Shown here in pieces: positions 9,920 to 35,142 of a stretch of DNA of 36,071 nt (the stretch's first letter is position 1; the number at the start of each line of letters is the position of its first letter). Origin of the DNA: Aquificales bacterium. GTDB taxonomy: Bacteria > Aquificota > Aquificia > Aquificales > Aquificaceae. Below the pieces are notes generated by a model. That model ran no database searches and was not told the DNA's origin. It worked only from the letters and a program-made list of their open reading frames with translations. The DNA is taken from positions 1 through 36,071 of the forward strand of contig JALWWX010000232.1 in NCBI GenBank assembly GCA_027078675.1. Reading direction: 5' to 3'. A program made the translations under genes and the position numbers.

Positions 9920-11674
9920 TCAAGGATACTTTGTTGACCTTTCGGAAACAAAAGAAAGGCGGTGCCTGATCAATTTACCTATATCGGATCTCGTAACTAT
10001 TCCCACTATTATTCTTTTGTCCCCCTCGGTTACGACTATAGGAATCCTTCCTATTCCCCTGTTTATCATTATATTGAGTACATCTGATAGCTTTGTATCA
10101 GGGTGTACAAATATGGGATCTTTTGTCATTATATCTTGTATTTTTACTTTTCCCTTTTCTTCTTCCCTTATGCGTGATATGTCACTCTTTGTTACAATCC
10201 CTTGAAGATTTCCTTCCTTAGCGACGGGTATTCCCGATATAAGCTTATTTTTCATAACCTCTTCCGCTTCCTTTACGGTTGCTTCTGGGGGTAAGGTAAT
10301 GGGTTTGTTCATAACTTCCTTCGCCTTGTAATTTTCAAGTATGCTTATACCTATTTCTTCCCTCATAATTGGTGAATCTTCCCTTCTGTTTACCTGGCTC
10401 GGGAATATGCTTTTGTCTCCGCTTACTATATAGGCTATGGATACCGCTATAATTGAAGGAACCAACAAATTATAGCCGTGGGTCATTTCCGCCACAAGTA
10501 TCAGTGTTGAAAGGGGTGCTTTTGCTGCACCGCCGAAAAAGGCTGTCATACCTACTACTGTAAATGAAGCTATATTAAGATAATCTTCTCCGCTTATCAT
10601 GTTTACTATAAGGCTTGATATTGCCCCGAGGGTTCCTCCTATCATTATGGAGGGTCCGAATATTCCCCCTGATCCACCAGATCCGAGTATGAGGGATGCA
10701 CAAAACATTAAAAATAGAGGTGAAAGCATAATGGTTATAATTCCTATGAAATCTATGTGTCCGTCTATTATTATCTGAAGCCAGCCGTAGCCGTTACCTA
10801 TTACAAAGGGATTGATTATACCTATAGAGCCTGTTATAAATCCTGCAATTGCGGGTCTCAGAAAGGGAGGTATGTTTGATTTGGCAAAAGTGTTTTGGAT
10901 TTCCGTGAACATCTTTATGAAAAATCTTATGGAGAAACCGCATATAAAACCAAGAAGGGCATAATATATAAGATGATCCACGGATAAGGATGCTTTGCCG
11001 GAAGTTGGTATATTAAATAGGGGATCAAAGCCCATAAAAGAACCGAAAACTATATAGGAAGTGACAGAAGCTAAAAATCCTGGAACTAAAAGTTCAATAT
11101 CAAAGTCCTTTTTGTAAAAAACCTCCGCGCTTATTATTGCACCTGCGAGCGGTGCCCTGAAGATGGCTGCCACTCCCGCTCCCAAGCCTATAGCTACAAG
11201 TTTTCTCCTTTCCCTTTTGCTGAGCCTTAAAATGTCGGAAAGTAAAGAACCCATACCTGCCCCTATGAGGGCTATGGGTCCTTCCCTTCCTGAGGTACCC
11301 CCAGAGCCTATGAGTATGGCTGAGCTTATTAATTTAACAAACGGTGCCTTTGGATCAATTTTCGCATTGTTAAAATGATAAGCCTTTATGGCGTGATCCG
11401 TGCCAATACCTTCTGATTCCCTTGAAAGGAAGTAAACAATAATACCAGAGATAAGGCCTCCTGCCATGGTTATAAAAGGTAGAAAGTAAGGGTGTTCCAC
11501 AAAGGGTTTTGTCAAAATGTATGTACCTTCGCCAGCAGGTAAGGGATTTATGTAACCCGCAATATCCACAAGTATAAATTCTGTTATTATTTCAATGGAA
11601 TAGTTAAAAAGGACAGCATAAATCCCTATGATTATACCAAGGATTATAGGTGGTAGGAAATTTTTGTGGATCAC
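9920..11674 (-). CDS. CLC-family chloride channel/transporter with C-terminal CBS domain pair
   Basis: GSGGTSGREGPIALIGAGMGS, FRAPLAGAIISAEV, GSGGSGGIFGPSIMIGG, then two CBS modules (KAKEVMNKPI..., IMTKDPIFVHPDT...); GTG start. Confidence 0.93.
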   Translation of the reverse strand: MIHKNFLPPIILGIIIGIYAVLFNYSIEIITEFILVDIAGYINPLPAGEGTYILTKPFVEHPYFLPFITMAGGLISGIIVYFLSRESEGIGTDHAIKAYHFNNAKIDPKAPFVKLISSAILIGSGGTSGREGPIALIGAGMGSLLSDILRLSKRERRKLVAIGLGAGVAAIFRAPLAGAIISAEVFYKKDFDIELLVPGFLASVTSYIVFGSFMGFDPLFNIPTSGKASLSVDHLIYYALLGFICGFSIRFFIKMFTEIQNTFAKSNIPPFLRPAIAGFITGSIGIINPFVIGNGYGWLQIIIDGHIDFIGIITIMLSPLFLMFCASLILGSGGSGGIFGPSIMIGGTLGAISSLIVNMISGEDYLNIASFTVVGMTAFFGGAAKAPLSTLILVAEMTHGYNLLVPSIIAVSIAYIVSGDKSIFPSQVNRREDSPIMREEIGISILENYKAKEVMNKPITLPPEATVKEAEEVMKNKLISGIPVAKEGNLQGIVTKSDISRIREEEKGKVKIQDIMTKDPIFVHPDTKLSDVLNIMINRGIGRIPIVVTEGDKRIIVGIVTRSDIGKLIRHRLSFVSERSTKYP

Positions 11675-11689
11675 TTTATATATTATTAT

Positions 11690-12571
11690 ATGATAAGGAT
11701 TTTACCTTTTTTGTTAGTCATTGTATTTCAAAGTTACGGATTTTCCGTTGAAAAGTTTTTCTATCTTATGGGAACATATAGCACAATGGATCTTGATAAT
11801 CCTGATGATATAAGGAGGGCTTATAAGTATTTAAGGAAACTGGAAAATAAAATGAGCACATACCTGGCGGAGTCTGAGGTTTCCCTTATAAACAGATATG
11901 CAGGTATTAAACCCGTAAAGGTATCCGGAGAAATTGTGGAAGTTATTATGGAAGCATTAAAAATATCAGAAAAGACCTATGGATATTTTGACATAACAGT
12001 CGGAGCTTATACTATAAACCACGTGCGTAAAAGGTTATTGAAAAAGGAGGAAGCTTTAAGGTTGATAAACTACAAAGATGTTGTGGTTAACGGAGACAAG
12101 GTGTTTTTAAGGAAAAAAGGTATGGCTATTGATCTCGGCGGTATAGGGAAAGGGTATGCCTTAGAAAAGGTCCATGACTATCTGAATGTTGAAAGGGGAT
12201 TTATAAGCATAGGGGGTGATATGAAGATATGGGGTATGAGGAAGTCAATAGCTATATTGGATCCTTTAGAGGAAAGTATCATCGCATTTTTTGTCAATAG
12301 GGGAGACCTGTGTATATCCACATCAGGAAATTATCATCAGGATCATATAAGAACACAAAACAGAAACATTATACAGGTTACCGTCTTACACAGAAATTGT
12401 ACTTACGCTGATGCCTACGCTACCGCTTTATTTGCTATGCCTGAGGGGGAGATTAAAAGGTTTTTAAATGAAAATGAAGATGTTGGTGTATTTATTTTGT
12501 ACAAGAATAGGGAGGTTTATGTTAATTCCGCATTTTTGTCCTACTGTGAAAAATTTAAAATAGTTGAATAA
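11690..12571 (+). CDS. apbE: FAD:protein FMN transferase (ApbE family), signal peptide
   Basis: FYLMGTYSTMDL, YGYFDITVGAY, MAIDLGGIGKGYALEKV, GFISIGGDMKIWG, TYADAYATALFAM. ATG 11690 gives a signal peptide (MIRILPFLLVIVFQSYGFS); the track start at 11666 overlaps the divergent gene. Confidence 0.9.
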   Translation: MIRILPFLLVIVFQSYGFSVEKFFYLMGTYSTMDLDNPDDIRRAYKYLRKLENKMSTYLAESEVSLINRYAGIKPVKVSGEIVEVIMEALKISEKTYGYFDITVGAYTINHVRKRLLKKEEALRLINYKDVVVNGDKVFLRKKGMAIDLGGIGKGYALEKVHDYLNVERGFISIGGDMKIWGMRKSIAILDPLEESIIAFFVNRGDLCISTSGNYHQDHIRTQNRNIIQVTVLHRNCTYADAYATALFAMPEGEIKRFLNENEDVGVFILYKNREVYVNSAFLSYCEKFKIVE

Positions 12572-12637
12572 ATATATGACTTTTGTCATTGTTGAACTGT
12601 GTTTTTGAGATGATAATGAAATTAAATTTCAATTTCA

Positions 12638-13165
12638 ATGGCTGTGAAGGTAATTATTATGGTTATGGCTTCTTTAACCTTTGCTTATTCAAAGGTTGAT
12701 GTCACTAAGTATATAAGATTTTATTATCCGGATTCTGTAATAGAGATTAGAAATATAATCCTCAGCAAGGAACAGGTTAAAAGAGCAAGTAAGTTGGCAA
12801 AGGTAAAGATAAGATCAAGGCTTGTATCCTTTTACCTCATTAAGGATAAATCTGGTAACATAGTTGCATACGCTTATATAGATACTCACCGTGTCAGGAC
12901 AAAACCGGAAACAGTTCTTTACATAATTAGCAGAAATGGAGAGCTTGAAGTAGCAGAAGTTATAGCCTTTCTTGAGCCTCCCGAATATAAAGCTGATGAA
13001 AGATGGTTGAGCATATTTAAAGGAAAATCCCTGCATAAAGACAAATTGGCATTAAGGAGGGATATCCCTAATATAACTGGTGCTACCCTTACTGCAAGAG
13101 CAATTACTAAAAGTGTAAGAAAAGTGCTTGCGTTGTGGCAGGTTGTGTTTGGGGATAAGAAATGA
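12638..13165 (+). CDS. Periplasmic FMN-binding domain protein (RnfG/NqrC-type flavinylation site)
   Basis: Signal peptide, then C-terminal NITGATLTARAITKSVRKVL resembling the [S/T]GAT-x-[S/T] covalent FMN motif; directly after apbE. Confidence 0.82.
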   Translation: MAVKVIIMVMASLTFAYSKVDVTKYIRFYYPDSVIEIRNIILSKEQVKRASKLAKVKIRSRLVSFYLIKDKSGNIVAYAYIDTHRVRTKPETVLYIISRNGELEVAEVIAFLEPPEYKADERWLSIFKGKSLHKDKLALRRDIPNITGATLTARAITKSVRKVLALWQVVFGDKK

Positions 13166-24422: not shown

Positions 24423-26504
24423 TTAAGGCTGAGGCGGACAGTTGGGATCACCTTGGTTACAGTTACAGCTTCCCGGACCCCAATTTTTTGAGAGGTAGTC
24501 AACTATAGCGGTAAAGGCAGGACCATTAACACCTCCGGGAACTGCACAGCCATTCATATCTATCATCCTTACTACGGTCTGTTGCCAATCTGCGTTCTTT
24601 TTTCCATCCAGAAGTACCATTTGTAAGTTGTGTTTGTTCTGCGTTATTACACAATCCGGACCGGTACCTTGATTCATTATGGTTATACCGTGACATACAC
24701 TACATGCCCTTTGGACGATTTCCCTTCCGAGCCATGTTGATACATCAGTTGTCTTTGTAGGATCAGCTATAGTAGCCAGATGGTTGATGATAGCGGATGC
24801 ATACTGTCCGTCAAGACCCCCAGGTATTTCACAACCTTCCGTATTAATCATCCTGTCAAGGGTTTGATACCAGGCTGTACTATCTTTACCTTGGAGAAGT
24901 TCAAAGGAATGCTGATAAGGATGTCTTGTTACAACAACAGAGGAGGGTGAAATAGATCCATCTTTATTAAGTCCACCTACTATAACACCGTGACATGTGT
25001 TACATGCCCACTGTGTAAGGAATGCTCCGTCCGTAGGCAGATTGGTGGAAGTTATTCCTGGACCGTAGTTGTTTGCAAGCCATGATGCAAAAGCGGTTTT
25101 TGCGACACCTCTTGGATCTGACGGATCAAGGGGCAAGGTACATCCTTCAACATCTATCATCCTGTCTATTGTTCTTTCCCACTCCTGTTGTGTTTTACCC
25201 TGAAGTAGAGCCATATCCCTACCTATGGGCATGGCGGTAACCCTATTCTGCTTTATTACATTGTCGGGATTAGTAGCATCTATTCCTACAGTTATACCGT
25301 GACACTGACCGCATGTTACCTTTATAGCTTCTTCCGTGCTGGCAAAGTCATTTATTGTGTACTCTTGTACTGTGGTAGAACCAGACCCAAAGTTTTGATC
25401 AAGGTATGTAGCCACTTTATCTATAGCACAATCTTCAAGACATTTCTGAAGATTTTGCGCGTTTGCGCATCCGCAAGAGTCCGCAGAGTCTGTTAAGTTA
25501 GGCAACTGAGCACCGTTTGCATAGATCATCCTTCTTATTGTTCTTTCCCAACCCTTTTTGGTTTTCTTACCTATAACGACAACATCCCACAAGGTTTGTG
25601 CATCCGTAACCCTCACTTTATTCTTACCTACAACGATACCGTGACATATGGTGCATGTGTTTTGAACTATTGTTTGTGCTGCGTTTGGAGATGACAGATC
25701 AACAGTAGGTTTGGTTCCACAGTTTGCACATCCTGGTCCGTAGTTTTGTGTCAAGTGACAGACTATCTTTTCAAAGACTGTGGCCGTACCAGGGTTATTA
25801 TTAACCCATGTACAATCAACAACACCTGTTATTATGCCTGCCTGACCCTCATCCCTTATTTTGAGACAATCCGCCTCTACGGGAGTAGGTGTCGCGTTCG
25901 TATCTACATGGTACTGCGCACCACCTGGAATTGCACAACCGTTCTTCTTTATCATCCTACATACTACAAATTCCCACTCCCACTGTTGTTTTCCGTCAAT
26001 AAGATTGATTGGACCGTTCAAGGGACTTGTGGTTGTAATTGCATTTCCGTTGATGCTTAGGTTATGACATGGACCACAAGCCAGCGTAAATAGCTGTGCG
26101 GGATCGGTAGGCAGGACTTTTGCGCTAACAGTATTCGGACCGAAGTTTTCCGAAAGCCACGTCACTATCATATTGTATGTTTCACCACCTATACCCCCAG
26201 GAACATTACAGCCGTTTTCTTGTATCATTCTTGCTACTGTCTTTTCCCAACCGTCCCTTGTCTTACCGTCCAACAGTTTTACATCCCAGCCTGTGGGACC
26301 GCTTGTTATCCGCCTTTCACCTATGACTATACCGTGACATGCCCCACAGTTTTCGGAAATATAGGAAGGCACATTAACTTGTGCCTTAGAAACATCAGCA
26401 GTCACTGGTATATAGTCTTTACTTCCACTACCCCCACAGCCTGCAAGTATAAATATTCCAAATAACAAAGAGGGTAACATAAGAATTTTTTTCTTTACAC
26501 CCAT
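24423..26504 (-). CDS. Hexaheme c-type cytochrome lipoprotein made of six repeated single-heme domains
   Basis: Lipobox ILAGC; CxxCH at residues 53 (CGACH), 143 (CGPCH), 284 (CTICH), 398 (CGQCH), 501 (CNTCH), 601 (CSVCH), each followed by a W..T..RMI...G(C) segment. Confidence 0.9.
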   Translation of the reverse strand: MGVKKKILMLPSLLFGIFILAGCGGSGSKDYIPVTADVSKAQVNVPSYISENCGACHGIVIGERRITSGPTGWDVKLLDGKTRDGWEKTVARMIQENGCNVPGGIGGETYNMIVTWLSENFGPNTVSAKVLPTDPAQLFTLACGPCHNLSINGNAITTTSPLNGPINLIDGKQQWEWEFVVCRMIKKNGCAIPGGAQYHVDTNATPTPVEADCLKIRDEGQAGIITGVVDCTWVNNNPGTATVFEKIVCHLTQNYGPGCANCGTKPTVDLSSPNAAQTIVQNTCTICHGIVVGKNKVRVTDAQTLWDVVVIGKKTKKGWERTIRRMIYANGAQLPNLTDSADSCGCANAQNLQKCLEDCAIDKVATYLDQNFGSGSTTVQEYTINDFASTEEAIKVTCGQCHGITVGIDATNPDNVIKQNRVTAMPIGRDMALLQGKTQQEWERTIDRMIDVEGCTLPLDPSDPRGVAKTAFASWLANNYGPGITSTNLPTDGAFLTQWACNTCHGVIVGGLNKDGSISPSSVVVTRHPYQHSFELLQGKDSTAWYQTLDRMINTEGCEIPGGLDGQYASAIINHLATIADPTKTTDVSTWLGREIVQRACSVCHGITIMNQGTGPDCVITQNKHNLQMVLLDGKKNADWQQTVVRMIDMNGCAVPGGVNGPAFTAIVDYLSKNWGPGSCNCNQGDPNCPPQP

Positions 26505-28386: not shown

Positions 28387-28960
28387 TACCGTAATTTCCT
28401 CCTTTTTTCCTGTATGCTATTCTCAGTTCTCCGGTCTTCATATCAACAAAAGGTATAAAGAAGGCTCCGGATTCTTGAAGTTCCATTATTGCATCTTCCA
28501 CGCTCATAGGTTTTTCTATGCTAAGTTCTTCTTCTACGATGAGGGGTCTTTCTCTTTCCTCGGGCGGAAGGGGTTGGGGTGTATGCATCTCTTCCTTTAT
28601 TTTTGCACTTTTCCTTCTAAGTTCTAACCTCCTCTGTTTTAATTTTATAAGTTGCCTTTCAACTTCATCAAGAACTTTGTCAAGGGCGGTGAATACATCG
28701 GGGTCTTCTTCCCATGCATGTATAGCACCACCGCCAGCTGTCTTCAGATATATATCAAGATCAACCCTGTACATAGTAGGATGGCTTTCACCGGCAAAAT
28801 CCTTATGCTTTGACCTTACACTTGATAGGGTTACGATAGCTTCTATTTGATCCTCTCCCGCTTCTCTTAGATACCTGTTAAATCTGCTTAGTTTACCTTC
28901 AATAAAGCTTTTCATTGCTTCGGTAAATTCAATATCTTTTCCCCTGAATTCAATATTCAT
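28349..28960 (-). CDS. hpf: Long-form ribosome hibernation promoting factor
   Basis: MNIEFRGKDIEFTEAMKSFIEGKLSRFNRYL...DVFTALDKVLDEVERQLIKLKQRR plus C-terminal KPMSVEDAIMELQESGAFFIPFVDMKTGELRIAYRKKGGNYGII; SD GGAGG and ATGA overlap support start 28960. Confidence 0.92.
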   Translation of the reverse strand: MNIEFRGKDIEFTEAMKSFIEGKLSRFNRYLREAGEDQIEAIVTLSSVRSKHKDFAGESHPTMYRVDLDIYLKTAGGGAIHAWEEDPDVFTALDKVLDEVERQLIKLKQRRLELRRKSAKIKEEMHTPQPLPPEERERPLIVEEELSIEKPMSVEDAIMELQESGAFFIPFVDMKTGELRIAYRKKGGNYGIINTKCKAGSFL

Positions 28961-30456
28961 TCCCTTAACCTCCATATTCTGAATCCTGGTTTATTTAAAA
29001 TTCTACCCTTTCTTATACCGCTTTTGAAGGGTTGACTTTCTTCAAAGCCTTCTGATACAAATATTGTATCATCGCTGACTGTATTTGTTATTTCAACCCT
29101 TACTCCTTTGAAGAGGGAATCTTCTTTAATACCGAGCTTTTCTGCTGTTTTTTTATTAATGTACACTTTTTGTTCCCTTTCAAGTCCGTGAAGCCAAGGA
29201 TACCAGTGTCCCCATATTTCTACTGGGGAATCTCCTACTATTACATATATATCTCCATACCTTAAATCATAGGTTTCCTTCGTATCTATTTTTGAATCCC
29301 TGAGGTCATTTTTATAAATTGTAGGTTCCTCTTGTCCGCTTATATCAAATATGTAACTAATTGTATCTTCAACCGTGTATGGAAAATTTTGAAGTTTAAC
29401 GCTTTTAGTTTCATAAGCAAAGGGATTAAAGAGGGGGGTGGTTTCTCTTTCTTTGAAAAGGGGTAAGGGTATTATTACATTGCTGTTCATTGCTGTGAAA
29501 TCGGGAAGAAGGCTAAAGGAGATCCTTTCCTGATTTTCGGGAAGGCTATCAAATTCATAAAGGGTGTTATCTACGGAAATTATCAAGTCGTGACTTTCCA
29601 AGTTTATATCCTTAAGCTCTTTTATTTCCACATTTGTTATATTTCCTATGAAGGCGTATTCCGTTCCGTACGATGTTCTCAGATGTTTTATAAAGCTTAT
29701 TACAAAATACCTGAGTGGTGATTTGAGAAGAGTTTCGCTGACTATAATGAGGCTTTCTTTTGTAGTTTCAAGATAGGATTTTAATCTATTCCACGGTTCA
29801 TTCTTTCCTTCTAATATGTTTTCAAGTGTGTTTTTAAGTTGATAAGGGTTCATCAGTAAATTTATATTTGCTTTAGCGGACAGTGTGTTGTACCTTGAAG
29901 AGATATTAACAAGGTATGATCCCTTTTCCACCGCATCCATTATCCATCTTGTTGCCATAACTTCCGAGTTAACGGGATCCGTTTCCAGCGCTATTATAAG
30001 CTTCATATTTGACCATTCATAGGGAGGTACGGATGAAGGTTTAAAGGGCAAGAATACGCCCGTTGTATATATGTCTTTTGTAAGCTTTCTCAATACCTTA
30101 TAGTCTTCAATTGTTGAGAATTTACCCATGATAGCTGCGGGTTTCTTTATTGGCCTTTTTGATAAAAGTGCCTTCACTTCTTCTATATCACTTTTTATAA
30201 ATTCCCTTTCCTTTCTTATAAGAATGTCCTTTATCCTGTAAGGGAGTTTGTCCGTTTCACCTATGAGAGCTATTCCCTTATTGCACAGGCTTCCTACTGA
30301 GTTTTTATCGTAAGGGTGCCCGTATAAATCAACGATTTCTTCATCCTTCATATAAGCAATAAAACCACAATGGCAACCACATCCGAAACAATAACCACAA
30401 ACTTCCCTGTTAAATTTTTTTATGCTTAAGGGAACATCCGTGGGTTTCAGGTTCAC
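28957..30456 (-). CDS. Reduced molybdopterin-oxidoreductase / NuoG-like protein with N-terminal Fe-S motif
   Basis: VCGYCFGCGCHCGFIAYMKDEEIVDLYGHPYDKNSVGSLCNKGI resembles the Mo-bisMGD Fe4S4 domain; IIALETDPVNSEVMATRWIMDAVEKGSYLVNIS resembles the MGD-binding region; C-terminal AEKLGIKEDSL... resembles molydopterin-binding domain. GTG start. Confidence 0.75.
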   Translation of the reverse strand: MNLKPTDVPLSIKKFNREVCGYCFGCGCHCGFIAYMKDEEIVDLYGHPYDKNSVGSLCNKGIALIGETDKLPYRIKDILIRKEREFIKSDIEEVKALLSKRPIKKPAAIMGKFSTIEDYKVLRKLTKDIYTTGVFLPFKPSSVPPYEWSNMKLIIALETDPVNSEVMATRWIMDAVEKGSYLVNISSRYNTLSAKANINLLMNPYQLKNTLENILEGKNEPWNRLKSYLETTKESLIIVSETLLKSPLRYFVISFIKHLRTSYGTEYAFIGNITNVEIKELKDINLESHDLIISVDNTLYEFDSLPENQERISFSLLPDFTAMNSNVIIPLPLFKERETTPLFNPFAYETKSVKLQNFPYTVEDTISYIFDISGQEEPTIYKNDLRDSKIDTKETYDLRYGDIYVIVGDSPVEIWGHWYPWLHGLEREQKVYINKKTAEKLGIKEDSLFKGVRVEITNTVSDDTIFVSEGFEESQPFKSGIRKGRILNKPGFRIWRLRE

Positions 30457-32835: not shown

Positions 32836-35141
32836 ATGCTTGTTTTAATGCTTTTGTTTCCTGTACTATTATGGGCTGCCAATCTATATGTGACTCCTAA
32901 TCCTTCTACTGGAGCGGATTGTAGTCAAACAAACCCTTGTGGTCTTCAGGATGCTTTAAATATTGCTGCAAGTAACGGGGAGTCTGATACGGTTTATCTT
33001 GAAGCGGGGACATATTCTTTGGGAAGTGTAGTCAGCTATACTCCTTCATCCACTGAAAATTTTAGTATCTATATAAAAGCTTTGGATCCAAATAATAAAC
33101 CCGTTTTGGATGGGGGAGGGTCGGAGATAATGAGCATAAATACTACAGGCTTGCCTGATGATTCCAATGTGGTGATAAGTGTTGAGAATATAGTCTTTTA
33201 TGCAGGCGGGGTAACAGCATCGGGAATTTCTGCTTCCGCTTTAGAGATAAAGACCTCGCAGGCTACGGTAAGTGTGGTAGGTTGTGAATTTAGGGGAAAT
33301 ACTTTTTCTTTAGACACAAGTGTATTATTTGTAAAAGCTAACACCGCCCAATTAAAGGATAACGTGTTTCAAGACAATAACATATTAGGTGCAAATGCTA
33401 CATCCTATCTTATTAAGTATGAGGGTTCATATGTTTCCTTTATCAATAATCTTATAGAAAACAACATATCAACCGGAAAGCCCGCAGTTGCGTTTTATTC
33501 TCAGGCTTCTCAGGTTGCCAATGTTATAGGAAATAGGATATTGAATAATTCCCAATATGCGGGTTTGAAACTTGATAACTCCGTATCCTATGTATATAAC
33601 AACTTCATTGTTGGTAATACTGCTGACACGGGTGATTATTACAGTAGTGGTGTTGGAAGTTGTATATATGTGTATGATAATCCTGCGGTCTATATATATG
33701 GAAATTACTGCGTTAACAATACCGCTGATGTGGGGTCAATTTCTATAGAGTCAGGTCCAGGCGGTAAGCAGAATGTTGAAATAGTCAACAATATTATATA
33801 TGGAAACCGCGCTGTATTGTCTGGAGGTGGTATTGGTATAGACATTTCTTACGGAAAAGTCGTTGTTACTAATAACACCATCTATAATAATACCGCACTT
33901 ATGGGGGGAGGTGTTTTTATATACTCTTCTCCGTCTGGTGATAGAAGGGCTTTCATTTACCTTTATAACAATATCATTTATGGAAATAAGGCTGATACGG
34001 GGGCAGAAGTACTTTTGATGTCGGAACCTTCTGCCAAACTTGACCTGAATATTCATTACAACATACTATCTTCGGAGGAGGGTGTAGAACTGGATGTTTG
34101 GAGTGATGATGTGAATGTCTACATGGATAACAATATCTTTGAAAATCCCCTTCTTGCAAATCCTTATGCAGGAGATTTCGGCCTAAGACCGGATTCCCCT
34201 GCAATTGATGCTGGTTACAACGATGCACCCGCCTTACCTCTTGAGGACTACAGGGGCGGACCCCGTATTGTAGGACCCAATGTTGATATAGGTGCTGTTG
34301 AGTATGACCCTTCCCTTCCGCCTTCCTATCCCAATATAAAGCTTGATATGGATGAGATTGATTTCGGGGATGTGTTAAAGTATGAAAGCAAATTTAAAGA
34401 TATTAATATAGCCAATGTGGGTAACGCTCCTCTTTCCGTGATGGATATTTATGTGCTGGGAAATAGGTTTAGCCTTGATGTTAATGGCGGGGACAAGCCT
34501 TGTGGAAATACCTCGTTTACCCTTAATCCCGGGGGTAACTGTACTGTAAGGATTTATTTTGAAGGCTCGGAGGAAGGTACCTATGAGGGAATACTTCTTA
34601 TATCATCCGATGATCCAGATTCACCAGAACTGAGTGTTGGTATAAGGGCTACGGTAGTGGGATGGTCGGATACGGGTGAAGTTAATACGAATTACGGTAA
34701 GATGATCTTTTATATAACGGAGGGCAAATTTGAGACTTTAAAGGCGGAAAGGATGACATGTAAACTTCCCGAAGGCTATAAGCTTTCGCCTTATGGTTCT
34801 GTGCGTTTGGGTATTGATTTAAAGGGAAGCTCGGATACACTGCTGAAGATAGAGTTGCCCAAAGTTAAAAGGGGGATCTTTGTATTCTTATGTGCTGATA
34901 GTAATGGTTATTTTGTTGAGAACGCATATGTAAGCGGGAACGGAATAGGTATAAGTTTGAGTGATGACGCGGACAAAAAAAGGGACGGCCGTATTAATGT
35001 TTATATTGCCTTGGGTGAGAAGGGCATTATTCAGAAGGTTGTAAAAGAAAAGGGATGTTATTTCTCCGGTTATTTTCCGCTTCTTATTTTGTTTATGGCT
35101 TTAATACACCTTCTAAGAATACGTTATAATTTATTTAGGTA

Positions 35142-35142
<1 letters not shown>
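32836..35142 (+). CDS. Secreted right-handed parallel beta-helix protein with a choice-of-anchor (ASH/Hydin-like) domain and C-terminal TM
   Basis: Signal peptide MLVLMLLFPVLLWAA; CSQTNPCGLQDALNIAASNGESDTVYLEAGTYSL; repeated N-N-I-I-Y-G-N ladder; IDFGDVLKYESKFKDINIANVGNAPLSV...; C-terminal GCYFSGYFPLLILFMALIHLLRIRYNLFR. Confidence 0.88.

Follow-up and report, generated by a model that had tools for sequence, protein, structure and literature searches.

The window analysed here, a stretch of 36,071 nucleotides from an Aquificales bacterium, contains an open reading frame whose predicted product is a lipoprotein carrying six tandem single-heme cytochrome c units (Table 1). The interval assigned to this gene in a preliminary description made from the DNA letters was right, and the gene sits on the minus strand; the same interval read on the plus strand contains many stops. 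The six CxxCH motifs lie at the residues listed there, and composition-preserving shuffling of the protein (20,000 trials) gave a mean of 0.025 and a maximum of 2 such motifs. The lipobox on which the lipoprotein claim depended is likewise present, with Gly at position +2. In Escherichia coli, a lipobox Cys followed by Gly is the rule for lipoproteins of the outer membrane, and the predicted mature N-terminus, Cys23 followed by Gly, points to that location, with either face of the membrane being compatible with the motif.

Table 1. Positions of the cytochrome array, its long paralogs and the MtrAB-type cluster (window coordinates unless a locus is named; residues numbered on the precursor)
Feature	Location	Strand	Basis
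Six-unit single-heme cytochrome c lipoprotein, 693 aa	24423..26504	-	ORF; PF13442 and PF00034 exceed cut-off; orthologs 88-90% identical
Predicted signal peptide up to lipobox LAGC23, Gly at +2	26436..26504	-	Sequence; lipobox-type Cys also N-terminal in orthologs and paralogs
Unit 1, aa 40-121: CGACH 53-57, W86, Met93, Cys99	26142..26387	-	AF2 pLDDT 87.1; best folds QHNDH alpha and SorB
Unit 2, aa 127-257: CGPCH 143-147, Met184, Cys190, ~45-aa Cys-containing insertion	25734..26126	-	
Unit 3, aa 266-372: CTICH 284-288, Met326, Ala332 replacing Cys, four-Cys insertion 344-359	25389..25709	-	
Unit 4, aa 380-481: CGQCH 398-402, Met449, Cys455	25062..25367	-	
Unit 5, aa 485-577: CNTCH 501-505, Met552, Cys558	24774..25052	-	
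Unit 6, aa 586-675: CSVCH 601-605, Met647, Cys653	24480..24749	-	
Cys/Pro-rich C-terminal tail GPGSCNCNQGDPNCPPQP	24426..24479	-	Identical in sole other full-length ortholog
Long array paralogs	G000:C10 (L037:5110-7698), C154, C200, C211, C249; G001:C39, C42, C43, C22, C47; G003:C20, C81, C119, C125, C142		
MtrAB-type cluster	G000:C177, L073:7018-12039; also L074:7332-12357	- (L073)	

Pairwise identity among the six units is 27-40%, and the linkers between them, measured between the helices of a low-confidence model, are 12-19 residues long. The mature protein contains 32 Cys, 12 of them within CxxCH motifs and one that would bear the lipid. The Cys-containing insertions of unit 3 (window 25428-25493) and unit 2 (25785-25919), together with a GCANC linker, are conserved in the orthologs and could form disulfides or a metal site.

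The gene is 88-90% identical in three other genomes, with the same neighbours in the two where these were read, and it is therefore not an assembly artefact. Neighbouring genes match phosphoribosyltransferase and menaquinone-biosynthesis families, an HD-domain protein and others; the neighbourhood is of housekeeping type, with no redox enzyme obviously in need of a hexaheme cytochrome. Elsewhere in the window (11666-13165), an ApbE-type FMN transferase adjoins a protein that weakly matches RnfG/FMN-binding families; such parts are typical of flavin-based electron transfer in the periplasm. A 499-aa molybdopterin oxidoreductase-like protein (28957-30456) has weak matches to formate dehydrogenase alpha, is short for that family and is possibly degenerate or repurposed.

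Domain family and probable heme ligands of the units

At the level of the whole protein, only general class I cytochrome families exceeded their Pfam cut-offs (PF13442 and PF00034). Assignment of the whole protein as a SorB equivalog was rejected, with a score of 37.1 bits against a cut-off of 93 for NF052246 (69.4 for a longer paralog) and no sorA in the neighbourhood. The same was true of QHNDH alpha, the alpha subunit of quinohemoprotein amine dehydrogenase, for which Dehyd-heme_bind (PF09098) was just under its cut-off (22.8 vs 25.2; a longer paralog exceeds it with 32.3) and TIGR03908 was far below (28.6 vs 274). At the level of individual units, across the 18 units of the hexaheme protein and its paralogs, the NCBIfam SorB model matched seven (best match 3.3e-9), QH_alpha four and Pfam Dehyd-heme_bind four. 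A unit profile compared with the PDB returned QHNDH alpha (1jju, 1.7e-5) and SorB (2blf_B, 2.2e-5) as the top matches. AlphaFold2 modelling of unit 1 from a 22-row unit alignment (pLDDT 87, pTM 0.77) predicted a CxxCH helix, short strands, a W..RM helix and a final helix, and a Foldseek search of this model against 350,542 PDB chains ranked 1jmx_A first and 2blf_B second (TM 0.51 and 0.54, with weak Foldseek E values of about 1). The preliminary description had likened the units to QHNDH alpha, a resemblance borne out by both profile and fold, although the closest named family is SorB (7 vs 4 of 18 units).

Both relatives differ from the array in their architecture. SorB and SorU (2blf_B; PMC4760952) share with the units a single heme, the CxxCH motif, a W...V..M helix and a final helix, and SorB is their best NCBIfam match; however, each is one soluble domain paired with SorA or SorT, whereas the array has six domains, a lipid anchor and no such enzyme adjoining. 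QHNDH alpha (PF09098; 1jju, 1jmx), the top-ranked fold, aligns with the units through its first heme half, including GW..TV.RM, but it is a large enzyme subunit with two CxxCH motifs, of which only that first half aligns well. Besides the arrays, the only unit-profile matches at E<=1e-6 in the host's bacterial family were two short single-domain proteins, both sorB, encoded directly downstream of a sorA-type gene. With SorB and QHNDH alpha ranking first by sequence and fold, and single-domain relatives located beside sorA, the array is a multiplied SorB-type domain, and its units are class I cytochrome domains of SorB/QHNDH-alpha type, each predicted to carry a single heme. In a unit tree built with the unit 2 and unit 3 insertions trimmed, unit 3 of the hexaheme protein falls with the corresponding unit of the longer paralogs, and most other units are without resolved grouping.

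The CxxCH Cys, Cys and His, one Lys, the Trp and the Met of an (R/K)M motif are invariant in all 18 units. From the first Cys of CxxCH to this Met there are 40, 41, 42, 51, 51 and 46 residues in units 1 to 6, respectively. In SorU, His/Met ligation has been shown, with axial ligands His51 and Met87, the latter 40 residues past the first Cys and so matching the spacing in unit 1 (PMC4760952); SorB 2blf_B has a sole Met in its aligned heme region, the one aligned to the (R/K)M Met. On the strength of this spacing and this sole Met, the (R/K)M Met is very likely the distal heme ligand, as had been proposed. An OmcS/OmcE-type nanowire, built on bis-His hemes, was rejected as a candidate: only six His lie outside CxxCH in the hexaheme protein, unevenly distributed across the units, and the Met is invariant.

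The additional Cys described near this Met is present at the five residues named (99, 190, 455, 558 and 653), six residues past the Met, with Ala in unit 3. Across the 18 units it occurs in 14, with Ala or Gly in the others; it is absent from hexaheme unit 3 and from paralog units 5 and 6. Given that SorB and QHNDH have Ala or Val at this position and that several array units lack the Cys, it is probably a later addition within the array family. It is secondary, lying outside the heme-ligand signature, and may serve as a disulfide, metal or sulfur site.

Distribution of the arrays and an MtrAB-type cluster

Of the 136 Aquificota genomes searched, array proteins were present in all four that belong to one genus and absent from the remaining 132, so that six-unit arrays are confined to this genus within the set surveyed. 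Outside the Aquificota, arrays were sought in plasmids, with no match, and by a close-relative scan of genome contigs with a single protein, in which the only matches were three MAGs of the same genus, labelled 'Aquificales bacterium'. Sample prefixes of the genus (e.g. S141) recur in published work on deep-sea hydrothermal deposits (PMC9793634), making a vent origin likely.

The genus also encodes longer paralogs of 847-862 aa, which combine six units with a seventh, different heme motif and a C-terminal Fn3-like domain. These are full-length in three genomes (G000, G001 and G003), and contig-end fragments indicate several further copies, suggesting that the genus invests heavily in the SorB-type domain. 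Each of these genomes has several near-identical paralogs whose N- and C-termini diverge and inside which contigs break, a pattern that suggests gene conversion or assembly collapse. Two large exported-looking proteins were also noted, at window positions 32836-35142 and at L037:2367-4880, the second of which adjoins an array paralog; one of the pair has a NosD-type match and the other has right-handed beta-helix and ASH/HYDIN-type Ig matches.

Elsewhere in the genome, a single cluster encodes a porin of the MtrB/PioB family (E 2e-70), a decaheme-type cytochrome of the DmsE family that has 11 CxxCH motifs (257 bits vs a cut-off of 192) and two c7-type proteins with six CxxCH motifs each; the porin exceeds its Pfam cut-off but is under the NCBIfam MtrB/PioB one (184.7 vs 240). 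The cluster is also present in G001. All four genomes of the genus have the porin, whereas the rest of the 136 Aquificota genomes yielded only a weak partial match, in one genome. No OmcA/MtrC family protein was found in the genus. The array gene is physically unlinked to the cluster, and the co-occurrence of arrays and MtrAB-type conduit is a single evolutionary event. An MtrAB-type cluster with no detected OmcA/MtrC makes the array lipoproteins natural candidates for its outer partner.

Proposed role and its alternatives

We propose that the array is an outer-membrane-type lipoprotein whose six tethered SorB-type His/Met hemes link an MtrAB-type conduit, or a periplasmic partner, outward, a reading for which we see the chances as evenly balanced. 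Six SorB-type domains on a lipid anchor, each with a His/Met heme c and separated by short linkers, would pass electrons by hopping or by diffusive contact between adjacent domains, and would thereby join the MtrA/MtrB-type conduit (or periplasmic partner) to donors or acceptors at or beyond the outer membrane. The grounds are the six CxxCH motifs, the lipobox, the domain family, the invariant Met, the genus restriction within Aquificota and the MtrAB co-occurrence; from these we infer that the protein is loaded with heme and uses the Met as a ligand, that it is exposed at the surface and works with the conduit, and in which direction electrons flow. A precedent exists in PgcA of Geobacter sulfurreducens, in which separate tethered heme domains exchange electrons and which, by NMR and SAXS, consists of independent domains that extend over as much as 180 A (PMC11520253). 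The short linkers of the array could allow a more compact arrangement.

A serious rival, though on balance an unlikely one, is a role facing the periplasm, in which the protein would be anchored in the inner leaflet as a hub or buffer, storing electrons and relaying them among quinol oxidation, periplasmic enzymes and oxidases with no extracellular transfer. SorB-type domains act in the periplasm, lipoproteins can face inward, the best Pfam matches are general class I cytochromes, and His/Met hemes would suit ordinary c-type partners. However, within the Aquificota the array is confined to the one genus that has an MtrAB-type conduit, and its paralogs carry an Fn3-like C-terminus of a kind commoner in exported proteins, both of which count against this role.

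The preliminary description had envisaged an extracellular or outer-membrane electron conduit in the form of a linear heme wire. The conduit part gains unforeseen support from the genus's own porin-cytochrome cluster of MtrA/MtrB type, but the wire part is unsupported. Linkers of this length between predicted helices would be compatible with units packed so that adjacent hemes lie within ~14 A edge to edge, but the full-length AlphaFold2 model (four orthologs; pLDDT 41, pTM 0.28) is of low confidence for the most part and predicts no packing, each unit models as a complete domain alone, and the insertions of units 2 and 3 disrupt the regularity. A rigid wire is therefore improbable; a model with this pLDDT is useless for heme distances, and so no inter-heme distance is claimed.

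More doubtful still is a multiplied electron-accepting subunit of a sulfite- or amine-oxidising enzyme. It would account for SorB and QHNDH alpha being the nearest domain relatives, but no such enzyme gene adjoins the array in three genomes, single-domain SorB was not found in the genus, the one protein examined that matches PF00174 strongly is MsrP-like, 187 aa long and without a neighbouring sorB, and the whole proteins are far under the SorB and QH_alpha cut-offs. Hemes of TsdA and SoxA are Cys-ligated, and the Cys near the Met in five of six hexaheme units and most family units might in the same way ligate heme or carry sulfur, but such a sulfur-chemistry role is scarcely credible given an invariant Met and a variable Cys that replaces the Ala/Val of SorB/QHNDH as a probable later addition.

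Among known systems, the closest in design is PgcA, which shares with the array a lipid anchor and tandem single-heme domains, is exported and works as tethered domains. It has three heme domains, two of them His/Met-ligated as predicted for the array units, and its homologs reach six CxxCH motifs (PMC5732950) or 3-14 hemes (PMC11520253). The earlier remark that no array of six with a lipobox had been described thus needs correcting, tandem single-heme lipoproteins being known. The two differ in that one PgcA domain is bis-His, its linkers are long and PT-rich whereas those of the array are much shorter and without PT repeats, and its host belongs to a different phylum; the PgcA domains (8QJ6, 8QJG and 8QK0) were absent from the unit-profile PDB matches at E<=1. 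The surface decaheme cytochromes MtrC and OmcA sit on the outside of an MtrAB conduit, the position proposed for the array, but have bis-His, close-packed hemes and a different fold. Shewanella strains with MtrC knocked out reduce soluble Fe(III) but not insoluble Fe(III) (PMC7198977). New in the present case, within the Aquificota, plasmid and close-relative searches above, are the choice of domain, the phylum in which it is found and the combination of such an array with an MtrAB-type conduit.

Aquificota are usually viewed as hydrogen- and sulfur-oxidisers living on soluble substrates. In the literature searched, few papers name them together with extracellular electron transfer, and one of these reports Sox and rTCA in this phylum and mtrAB in others. 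As a more tentative suggestion, a thermophilic Aquificota genus may have multiplied a cytochrome domain of the sulfite-dehydrogenase type to build lipoproteins with six and seven hemes, which replace MtrC on an MtrAB-type conduit at the cell surface. If true, the tethered-heme design of PgcA would have been invented a second time, independently and from a different cytochrome domain, and the MtrAB-type conduit with its multi-heme surface-type lipoproteins would bring extracellular electron transfer to the Aquificota, by a pathway of a make-up previously undescribed in this phylum.
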